A DNA stretch of 64,000 nt, taken from NCBI RefSeq assembly GCF_900637845.1, contig NZ_LR134439.1:124001-188000 (forward strand). The letters are read 5' to 3'. Made by a program: the position numbers and the translations under genes. Under the pieces are notes generated by a model. That model made no database searches, was not told the origin of the DNA, and was given only the letters and a program-made list of their open reading frames with translations. Shown here one piece after another: positions 2,928 to 40,816 of this stretch; position 1 is the stretch's first letter; every line of letters begins with the position of its first letter. The stretch comes from Erysipelothrix rhusiopathiae (GTDB lineage: Bacteria; Bacillota_I; Bacilli_A; Erysipelotrichales; Erysipelotrichaceae).

Positions 2928-3479
2928 ATGATTTTAGCGTTTACAGGTGCCGGAATTAGTAAGGCATCGGGAATAAGTACATTTATGGAACAACCTGAAG
3001 TTCGGGATCGATTGCATCGAAGTTTTGCGACACAACATCCCGAAGCATACCGAGAAACAATAGCAGAATTGTGTTACATCATTCAAAAGGCAGAACCGAA
3101 TGACGCTCATCGGGCCCTTTCGGAATATAACATTCCAATTATCACGATGAATATCGATGGTTTACATGAAAAAGCAGGCAGTTCCCCCATTGCTTTACAC
3201 GGATCAATGCCAAATGAGAATGAGCTCGCTTATGCGGATCAACTTTTCAATAAGCCGGTATTATATGGAGATCCTGCTCCAAGTTATCGACGCGCCTATG
3301 AAAAAGTAGATTCATTAAAAGAGGGGGACATTTTACTTGTTATTGGTGCATCACGATTTACTGCGGTCGCAACAGATTTACGCGAAATTGCGTATGCGAA
3401 TGGTGTGGAGATCATAGAGATTCAAGAGAATGCTGTTGAGCAAGTTCGAGAAACACTTGAATCTATAATTAACGATTAA
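2928..3479 (+). CDS. Minimal Sir2-family (sirtuin-like) NAD-binding protein
   Basis: At 183 residues this is much shorter than usual sirtuins (about 230-300). The NAD-binding motif GAGISKASGIS is at 7-17. TMNIDGLHEKAG (near 75) corresponds to the TQNIDGLHxxAG motif, and LHGS (near 91) supplies the catalytic histidine. A GAS motif (near 139) replaces GTS. The four zinc-binding cysteines that normally lie between the HG and GTS motifs are absent; the only cysteine is near residue 42. The family removes acyl groups from lysines or transfers ADP-ribose, using NAD. AAGGAGTGG precedes the ATG. The enzymatic activity of this short form is uncertain. Confidence 0.8.
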   Translation: MILAFTGAGISKASGISTFMEQPEVRDRLHRSFATQHPEAYRETIAELCYIIQKAEPNDAHRALSEYNIPIITMNIDGLHEKAGSSPIALHGSMPNENELAYADQLFNKPVLYGDPAPSYRRAYEKVDSLKEGDILLVIGASRFTAVATDLREIAYANGVEIIEIQENAVEQVRETLESIIND

Positions 3480-3480
3480 A

Positions 3481-3512
3481 AAGAGAATTCATTGCGCATT
3501 CTCTTTTTTTTA
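3481..3512 (+). terminator. Intrinsic terminator after the Sir2 gene
   Basis: The arms AAGAGAAT and ATTCTCTT enclose a nine-base loop and are followed by a T run. The mnmE -35 hexamer lies in the loop. Confidence 0.85.
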
Positions 3513-3527
3513 CCTATAATATGCGTA
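3492..3527 (+). promoter_or_regulatory. mnmE promoter giving a probable leaderless transcript
   Basis: TTGCGC at 3492-3497, a 17-base spacer and TATAAT at 3515-3520 form a good vegetative promoter. With a six-base discriminator the transcript would begin at 3527, the A of the mnmE ATG. There is no ribosome-binding sequence upstream. Confidence 0.7.
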
Positions 3528-4861
3528 TGATAACAGATACAATAGTAGCAATTATAACGGCGCTACAAGAAAGTGCCATCAATGTTTTAAGAATTAGTGG
3601 TGTGGATGCCATCGATATCGTGAATCAAATATTTTCACGCGATTTAGAGCATGTGGATTCGCATACAGTTCATTACGGTCATATTATTGACCCCGTGAAC
3701 AAACAAGTTGTTGATGAGGTTCTCGTCAGTGTTTTTAGAGCGCCTCGAACTTACACCCGTGAAGATGTAGTTGAAATTAGTTGTCACGGTGGTGTATTGG
3801 TGACAAAGAAAGTTTTAAGTTTATGTTTATCAGTTGGAGCACGTATGGCTGAACCGGGAGAGTACACACAGCGTGCATTCCTTAATGGACGCATTGACCT
3901 GTCTCAAGCAGAATCGGTGATGGAATTGATTCAAGCTCCAAATGAATTTGCGCAAGAACTTGCAATTTCGGGTGTTCAAGGGAATGTTCGTAAATTAATT
4001 GAACCCTTTCTCGAACGTCTAATTCAGATGATCGCAAATATCGAGGTTAATATTGATTATCCCGAATATGATGATGTTGAAGTGCTTACAGAAGCTGTGA
4101 TTTTACCCGAGGCGAAGCGGTTTTTAGAAGATCTAGGTAAAATTCTTAAAGAATCACAGAGTGGTCGAATCATGAAAGAAGGCGTTAAGACTGTTATACT
4201 GGGTAAACCTAACGTTGGGAAATCAAGTATTCTTAATGTTCTCCTTGAAGAAGATAAAGCAATCGTAACGGAGATCGCAGGAACGACACGAGATTTAGTC
4301 GAAGGATGGATTCGATTAGAGAATGTAGCCCTTCACTTAATTGATACAGCAGGTTTGCGTGATACCGGAGACCGAATTGAACAAATCGGGATTGAAAAAA
4401 GTCGAAAAGCACTCGAATCTGCAGAACTTGTAATTGTGGTTTTCGATGCATCACAAGCTCGTGATCAAGAAGATATTGATTTATTAGAAGCAACAAAACA
4501 TAAAGAACGCATTATTGTTTACAATAAAAAAGATCTCGTTAATCGAGAACCGGATGGTTTATACGTAAGTGCTTTAGAAGGTGATGTGCATGAACTTGTG
4601 GACGAAATCAATAAGCGTTATGTTGAACATACCAAAGCATTAACAAAGCCTACTTTATCCAATGAACGTCATATTGCACAGGTACAAAAAAGTTACCTCG
4701 CAATGCAACGTGCACTGGAAGCATTGGAGTTTGGAATGGAACTCGATTTGGTAACTATTGATTTAAATGAGTCTTATGTAGAACTCGCTTCAATTATTAA
4801 ACCGAAAAAAGATATTAATGTGCTGGATGAAATCTTTGCACGTTTCTGTCTGGGAAAATAA
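3527..4861 (+). CDS. mnmE: tRNA uridine-34 modification GTPase MnmE (TrmE)
   Basis: MnmE, with MnmG, installs the cm(n)m group on U34 of tRNAs reading split codon boxes. This 444-residue protein has the N-terminal folate-binding domain (ISCHGG, PGEYTQRAFLNGRIDLSQAE). It also has a G domain with GKPNVGKSS near 225, the AGTTRD switch, DTAGLRDT and NKKD, and the C-terminal FCLGK corresponding to the essential CIGK motif. I place the start at ATG 3527 (MITDTIVAI); the ATG at 3521 would lie between the -10 box and the predicted transcription start. mnmG is not in the window, so the usual mnmE-mnmG pairing is broken here. Confidence 0.95.
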   Translation: MITDTIVAIITALQESAINVLRISGVDAIDIVNQIFSRDLEHVDSHTVHYGHIIDPVNKQVVDEVLVSVFRAPRTYTREDVVEISCHGGVLVTKKVLSLCLSVGARMAEPGEYTQRAFLNGRIDLSQAESVMELIQAPNEFAQELAISGVQGNVRKLIEPFLERLIQMIANIEVNIDYPEYDDVEVLTEAVILPEAKRFLEDLGKILKESQSGRIMKEGVKTVILGKPNVGKSSILNVLLEEDKAIVTEIAGTTRDLVEGWIRLENVALHLIDTAGLRDTGDRIEQIGIEKSRKALESAELVIVVFDASQARDQEDIDLLEATKHKERIIVYNKKDLVNREPDGLYVSALEGDVHELVDEINKRYVEHTKALTKPTLSNERHIAQVQKSYLAMQRALEALEFGMELDLVTIDLNESYVELASIIKPKKDINVLDEIFARFCLGK

Positions 4862-12939: not shown

Positions 12940-12964
12940 ACCGAGTATACTCGGTTTTTTTTGT
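12940..12964 (+). terminator. Intrinsic terminator after the 3D-domain gene
   Basis: Perfect palindrome ACCGAGTA/TACTCGGT followed by a run of eight T residues. Confidence 0.88.
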
Positions 12965-12974
12965 TTTTAAAACA

Positions 12975-12990
12975 TGATATAATTGACACA
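12975..12990 (+). promoter_or_regulatory. Extended -10 promoter of rnmV, probable leaderless transcript
   Basis: TGATATAAT forms an extended -10, with the hexamer at 12978-12983. A start seven bases after the hexamer is 12990, the A of the rnmV ATG. I see no convincing -35 and no ribosome-binding sequence. Confidence 0.65.
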
Positions 12991-13547
12991 TGAACAAACT
13001 AAAGATACAAGAAGTAATTGTCGTAGAAGGAAAGCATGATAAGGAGAAAATCCTCAAATGTGTTGATGCCGATGTTATTATGTCCAGTGGCACCCACATG
13101 TCTGCAGAATTCTTAACATTATGTAAAAGAATGAATGAAGATCGTGGCATTATTGTTTTTACCGATCCTGATGGACCTGGTGAAATGATTCGACGTCGTA
13201 TTATTGAGACGGTTGGATCGTGCAAACATGCATCGCTTCATGTCTTACAAACAAAAAAGAAACAAAAAGTAGGTATTGAACATGCGGACTGTGATGATAT
13301 TGTCGAGGTTCTAAGTACCTGCTCTACTTTTGCTTTAAACAATGAATCCTTAACGCTTCATGAATTCCAATCTTTGGGACTCAGTGGCGCAAGTGATAGT
13401 GCATTGCGTCGTGATTTGTTATCGGAGGCGTTCCGTTTTCCTAAATCAAATGCGAAATCATGCCTGAAATATCTGAATATGCTTAATATTACAAAAGCAG
13501 ACTGCCTAATGGTTTTGAAAGAGAGTAATTATGAAAACAATCGCTAA
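12990..13547 (+). CDS. rnmV: Ribonuclease M5 (5S rRNA maturase)
   Basis: RNase M5 trims precursor 5S rRNA in Firmicutes. This 185-residue protein has the Toprim motifs: VVEGKHDKEKI near 11-21 with the catalytic glutamate, and FTDPDGPGEMIRRRI near 56-70 with the DxD pair. The later GIEHADCDDI is typical of the family. The length matches (about 185-190). Its end overlaps ksgA by 17 bases, the same coupled order as in Bacillus. No ribosome site precedes the ATG. Confidence 0.93.
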   Translation: MNKLKIQEVIVVEGKHDKEKILKCVDADVIMSSGTHMSAEFLTLCKRMNEDRGIIVFTDPDGPGEMIRRRIIETVGSCKHASLHVLQTKKKQKVGIEHADCDDIVEVLSTCSTFALNNESLTLHEFQSLGLSGASDSALRRDLLSEAFRFPKSNAKSCLKYLNMLNITKADCLMVLKESNYENNR

Positions 13548-40380: not shown

Positions 40381-40415
40381 TTGACATTGTTGTTCAAAGC
40401 CATATAATACATAGG
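40381..40415 (+). promoter_or_regulatory. Promoter of the ywiB-like gene, possible leaderless start
   Basis: TTGACA (40381-40386), a 16-base spacer and TATAAT (40403-40408) form a near-consensus promoter. The predicted start at 40415 is the G of an in-frame GTG. Confidence 0.7.
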
Positions 40416-40816
40416 TGAAATACGTAAGGGGGATCTCCATCAAAACTAAAGTCACTATTAAGCAAAAGTCTCGTGATGAATCATTTCATCGAACGGATAA
40501 CCAAGCCGATTTTATAAACTATGGATTGTATCAACGCATAATGTATGACGAGGAAGACGCATATGTTATTCTTGATTTCACCAATGACGAAGTGTCATTT
40601 AAGCGGCAAGGTGAATGGTTAACACAAGGAGTTTTCTGTAAAGGCGAACAAACAGAGTTGCTCGTCTCAAGCGCACAGGGAATTTTGGTGTTCGAGGTTG
40701 AAGTAGAAACATTAGAAGTTAGAAGTGGTCTTCTTTATATGAGGTATCATTTGAAGCAAGCTGGGTCACATGTTGATACGCTTGAATTCGAATGTAGGTG
40801 GGAACCGGAGGTATAA
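40415..40816 (+). CDS. DUF1934 (YwiB-like) beta-barrel protein
   Basis: This protein of up to 133 residues matches the DUF1934/YwiB family, a calycin-like beta barrel of unknown function, placed before rpoE. It shows KVTIKQKSRDESFH, DFINYGLYQRIMYDEEDAYVILDFTND, and a late LLYMRYHL. The annotated start is GTG 40415, which coincides with the predicted transcription start. An alternative is ATC at 40439, six bases after AAGGGGG (40426-40432); it would begin IKTKVTIKQK, closer to the usual family start. No ATG is available. Confidence 0.8.
   Translation: MKYVRGISIKTKVTIKQKSRDESFHRTDNQADFINYGLYQRIMYDEEDAYVILDFTNDEVSFKRQGEWLTQGVFCKGEQTELLVSSAQGILVFEVEVETLEVRSGLLYMRYHLKQAGSHVDTLEFECRWEPEV

Follow-up and report, generated by a model that had tools for sequence, protein, structure and literature searches.

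Predicted leaderless expression of mnmE and a small set of genes with a TATAAT-N6-ATG layout in Erysipelothrix

Promoter and start codon of mnmE

The region upstream of mnmE in Erysipelothrix rhusiopathiae raises the question of whether a gene can be transcribed from the first base of its own start codon in this organism and, if so, how many other genes share this arrangement. The window, that is, the whole stretch of 64,000 nucleotides analysed here, is part of a genome that consists of a single contig of 1,770,411 bases with 36.5% G+C (464-kb sample). Within it, a −35-like hexamer, TTGCGC (3492–3497), which matches the consensus at only three of six bases, is separated by a 17-nt spacer (3498–3514) from a TATAAT −10 element (3515–3520). 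The six-base discriminator ATGCGT (3521–3526) follows, and then the ATG of mnmE (3527–4861; 444 aa), which encodes the tRNA uridine-5-carboxymethylaminomethyl(34) synthesis GTPase; all of these features are on the forward (+) strand. This arrangement is as the sequence-only reading had described it, including the ATG at 3527 as the MnmE family start and the lack of a ribosome site before it, since no Shine–Dalgarno (SD) site is found in the sequence upstream of this codon. A −10 box 5–8 nt before the start, no SD and an AUG start codon, three of the features expected of a leaderless gene, are present at mnmE.

We consider it very likely that mnmE is expressed as a leaderless mRNA from its own TTGCGC-17-TATAAT promoter, as one of about eight such genes in this genome. 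The idea, already put forward in the sequence-only reading, is strongly supported by a −10/ATG spacing that is conserved across species, by the −1 pyrimidine and by the lack of an SD. From the spacing, this pyrimidine (T) and the conservation we infer a transcription start at the A of the ATG (3527, + strand). 70S ribosomes are able to recognise a 5′-terminal AUG directly. In our model, a housekeeping-sigma promoter would direct mnmE transcription from the A of ATG 3527, the 5′-terminal AUG of the resulting mRNA would be bound directly by the ribosome, and initiation would presumably proceed with an assembled 70S ribosome and initiator tRNA, as in other bacteria.

The identity of the protein is clear from TIGR00450 (416.9 bits; cut-off 252.6) and from the Pfam domains TrmE_N and MnmE_helical; among the named neighbours that the mnmE search returned are Erysipelotrichaceae, Faecalicoccus and Kandleria. 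Its N-terminus is informative because the open reading frame (ORF) list opens mnmE at an in-frame ATG at 3521, within the discriminator. Solved MnmE structures align from residues 3–4 of the 3521 ORF, which correspond to M3527 or the next residue, and the segment MITDTIVAI from 3527 onward is kept in MnmE orthologues. ATG 3521 would be excluded from the mRNA, because an RNA starting at 3527 begins downstream of it. The start codon of mnmE is therefore likely 3527 and not 3521, which amounts to an annotation correction. ORF callers are likely to open this gene two codons early (ATGCGT ATG).

A related alternative accepts the promoter and places the transcription start a few bases up- or downstream, or translates mnmE from ATG 3521, so that the mRNA would have a very short leader. 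The choice of start site by bacterial RNA polymerase can wobble by 1–2 nt, and the opening of the ORF list at 3521 would also fit such a reading. However, ATG 3521 immediately follows the −10 element, is seen only in the species of the window and its closest relatives and is missing from congeners further away. Moreover, the 6-nt discriminator, the −1 pyrimidine and the A at +1 form the expected start signature, and an RNA that began at T3528 would lack an intact AUG. We therefore give a short leader a very low probability.

The sequence-only reading had located the promoter inside a terminator. A hairpin rich in A+U, with a T run after it, does lie behind the upstream Sir2-like gene (3478–3508, + strand), and by its predicted fold it is probably a weak terminator: its stem (3478–3488/3498–3508) has a folding energy of −9.2 kcal/mol (z −1.5) and carries TTGCGC in the apical loop, it is poor in G-C pairs, and a terminator scan did not include it among its listed terminators. 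The hairpin is kept in the closest species and is not common to more distant congeners. The description thus holds literally for the window and its closest relatives, but the hairpin is weak and the overlap is absent in other congeners. Since the upstream sequences of those congeners are unrelated and still have the same −10/ATG spacing, the overlap of promoter and terminator looks like compact gene packing rather than a mechanism. The Sir2-like protein itself (2928–3479) has only 183 aa, and sirtuin models match mainly its first 95 residues; the gene is conserved in the genus and looks like a shortened sirtuin.

Conservation of the layout at mnmE, rnmV and further genes

Across 13 genomes of the genus, the window genome included, TATAAT is found directly 5′ of the mnmE ATG in ten. 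Four of these, the window genome, G009, G004 and G006, have the upstream sequence in common; five others (G002, G003, G007, G010 and G001) have a gap of 6 with differing discriminators, and G012 has a gap of 7. TATAAT-N6-ATG also precedes mnmE in a member of another genus (G021). The six-base discriminators vary (ATGCGT, AAGTGC, TAACCT, AAACAC and GAGCGC, with AATACT in the other genus), and the hexamers found at 17-nt spacing in congeners include TTGCGC, TTGAAT, TTGCGT, TTGATT and TTGCAC; G001 features an extended −10 in place of a TTG at this distance. The three remaining genomes (L011–L013) lack the layout and have SD-type starts: in G005 mnmE lies directly behind the sir2 stop codon and is preceded by an SD, and G011 and G008 likewise have SD-type mnmE starts. 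Judged from these three genomes, the leaderless layout at mnmE is not essential. In distant Bacilli and Clostridia, mnmE has mostly SD-type starts, and a clear leaderless layout was not found there.

This comparison bears on the possibility that mnmE is translated without an SD from a longer mRNA, produced by read-through from the Sir2-like gene or by a farther promoter, with an unstructured A/U-rich region around the start codon and only an incidental TATAAT spacing. The A+U-rich hairpin is probably leaky, and the congener with mnmE directly behind sir2 reads it from a common mRNA, but with an SD. In the other congeners that lack the promoter an SD is again present instead, the flanks and in some species even the upstream gene differ around a −10/ATG spacing that is kept to the base, and a longer mRNA gives the −1 pyrimidine no role. 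We regard this alternative as highly unlikely.

The predicted leaderless start at mnmE has a close counterpart in rnmV (RNase M5; 12990–13547, + strand; TIGR00334 at 131.5 bits, cut-off 110.65). Its ATG at 12990 lies six bases after TATAAT, which confirms that this gene shares the spacing as proposed, and the layout is present in all 13 genomes of the genus as well as in two further genera, represented by G020 and G021. The −10 is of the extended type, TGATATAAT (12975–12983, + strand), with TGNTATAAT kept in most genomes of the genus. Just 5′ of the promoter lies a hairpin, ACCGAGTATACTCGGT, with a T run (12940–12955, + strand), which resembles the hairpin overlapping the mnmE promoter. The AUG start codon is kept in the orthologues of both mnmE and rnmV. 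In G019 (L134), rnmV has TATAAT and, before the ATG, a very short leader (about 9 nt) that contains GGTGG, possibly an intermediate between leaderless and SD-led layouts.

The third proposed example, the ywiB-like DUF1934 gene (40415–40816) with TATAAT-N6-GTG, is not supported. The GTG at 40415 is replaced in G002 by GTA followed by an in-frame stop and is not kept in G010 and G012, and AAGGGGG or AGGAGG is found 10–17 nt downstream of the GTG position, at leader distance. We therefore rejected this gene as leaderless, the GTG being unconserved and the SD lying after it; a conventional, SD-containing short leader appears more likely. The gene has no ATG, GTG or TTG at the proper distance after the SD AAGGGGG. 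The in-frame codon at the right distance is ATC at 40439 (ATT in G012), and G002 and G010 have a TTG a little later than the ATC position. It is possible that ATC 40439 is a non-canonical start codon.

Six further genes with the layout came from a search of the whole genome (see below): a YitT-family membrane protein, a cation efflux transporter, a YigZ-like protein (UPF0029), a response regulator, an APH/choline-kinase-like gene and a nuclease homologue. The first five show the 6-nt gap in most orthologues tested, and the nuclease homologue keeps the layout in the closest relatives and in one further species (L356). Outside the closest species of the window, the gap is 6 in 38 of 39 orthologous sites and 7 in the remaining one; because exact TATAAT at gaps 4–9 was required, and weaker or more distant −10 boxes were left uncounted, this ratio measures the sharpness of the spacing within that range. 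Among 43 non-redundant sites, the −1 base is a pyrimidine in 42, compared with 68% in SD-led genes, and is C in 51% versus 14%; only one site has an SD-like sequence, and the pooled profile displays a TRTGn extended −10. A pyrimidine before the ATG is the usual signature of a transcription start. Nominal (binomial) p-values for these sites are too small, since related species are not independent samples. Despite this relatedness, several genes and distant genera agree on gap 6, and the comparison across species argues for selection on the TATAAT-N6-ATG layout.

Extent of the layout in the genome and the class

The sequence-only reading had suggested a recurring architecture and a genome search for TATAAT, six bases and ATG or GTG against a shuffled control. 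With ATG, the whole genome contains 50 such sites, versus 31 for a reversed-pattern control, and 8 of the 50 open long ORFs, namely mnmE, rnmV and the six genes above. At gaps 5 and 7, 30 sites were examined each, and none was a convincing gene start. When one mismatch in the −10 box was allowed at gap 6, only mnmE and rnmV looked genuine in the genome sample. GTG starts at gap 6 were all dropped because they lie inside coding frames, follow an SD or lack conservation.

In 390 ORFs from a 26% sample of the genome, the distance from TATAAT to ATG peaks at 18–27 nt, as expected for SD-led genes, and an SD-like sequence precedes the candidate ATG in 317. At each distance from 0 to 15 nt from these candidate ATGs, exact TATAAT turns up about once, with no peak at gap 6. 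Consequently, leaderless expression is the exception rather than the rule in this genome; by prediction the class is small, with about eight genes or ~0.5% of all genes, a number that is approximate because weaker −10 boxes may hide a few more. A recurring architecture is thus right in kind, with a mostly conserved set that includes rnmV, but the set is small, and the ywiB-like gene is not supported as a member. That TATAAT falls near these ATGs merely by chance in AT-rich DNA would agree with the missing gap-6 peak and with the many genome-wide matches that do not open genes. It is nevertheless largely refuted by the gap-5 and gap-7 controls and by conservation over many species and several genes, and its probability is close to nil.

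We further surveyed 119 genomes of the class for TGNTATAAT-N5Y-ATG at gap 6 versus gap 9; the counts are pattern matches rather than confirmed gene starts, and repeated copies inflate some genomes. In the window's family (11 genomes) they amount to 120 versus 22 sites, in a second family of the order (four genomes) to 45 versus 15, and elsewhere in the class to 387 versus 201. Judged from these pattern counts, the gap-6 excess is found throughout the class and is more pronounced in the window's family (Fisher p 7e-6, with genomes that are not independent). In two genomes, G025 and G027, TGGTATAATTAGATTATG or TGGTATAATGTAATTATG is repeated several times without change within one genome, which suggests a repeated element carrying a TATAAT-N6-ATG start.

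Why such a set would persist invites speculation. An old leaderless set, small and shared by Erysipelothrix and much of the family, might be kept because its translation by 70S ribosomes responds to the state of the translation machinery, an explanation that we consider unlikely. If true, it would mean that the RNA-maturation enzymes in a set with RNase M5, MnmE and other members are tuned to the status of the ribosomes.

Relation to known leaderless systems

Leaderless genes are a known kind; the Erysipelothrix lineage and the predicted gene set appear to be new, as we found no earlier report. A literature search for Erysipelothrix with leaderless mRNAs or transcription start sites yielded nothing relevant, and a search on mnmE or RNase M5 gave no paper that describes either mRNA as leaderless in its title or abstract. 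Mollicutes and Erysipelotrichia are close relatives, and the prediction would extend leaderless expression to a Firmicutes lineage near the Mollicutes, with a short, testable gene list. It also illustrates that cross-species spacing can reveal leaderless genes too few for a genome-wide signal.

Zheng et al. (2011) predicted leaderless genes from a TANNNT box that precedes the start codon at Pribnow distance, and several of their low-GC genomes show an extended TG (PMC3160421). The Lactobacillales and Mycoplasma genes of that study have a −10 box before the start codon, as at mnmE; its leaderless Firmicutes are the Lactobacillales and Mycoplasma, and the text names neither Erysipelothrix nor Erysipelotrichia (PMC3160421). 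Leaderless genes in Mollicutes have been put at 18% on average (PMC4014445). In Mesoplasma florum, the promoter is mostly 6–7 bases from the start site, and a few starts fall on the first base of the start codon (PMC7745072). Its spacing resembles the Erysipelothrix layout, but it differs in being experimentally mapped and in having a reduced genome.

In the streptococci, leaderless mRNAs or operons account for 8.6% in S. pyogenes, 8–9% in S. agalactiae and 9% in S. pneumoniae (PMC6431027, PMC4448216, PMC6212727), although they make up under 1% in Enterococcus (PMC7724050). By these figures, the sequence-only reading was too broad in describing leaderless mRNAs as uncommon in Firmicutes. All leaderless transcripts of S. 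agalactiae have an AUG, and 90% start at its A (PMC4448216); 54 leaderless mRNAs are common to S. pyogenes and S. agalactiae (PMC6431027). Streptococcal leaderless genes thus share with the Erysipelothrix prediction a start at the A of the AUG, the lack of an SD and conservation between species. They differ in extent and in kind of evidence: 8–9% mapped by dRNA-seq and Cappable-seq in streptococci, compared with a predicted ~0.5% of genes in Erysipelothrix.
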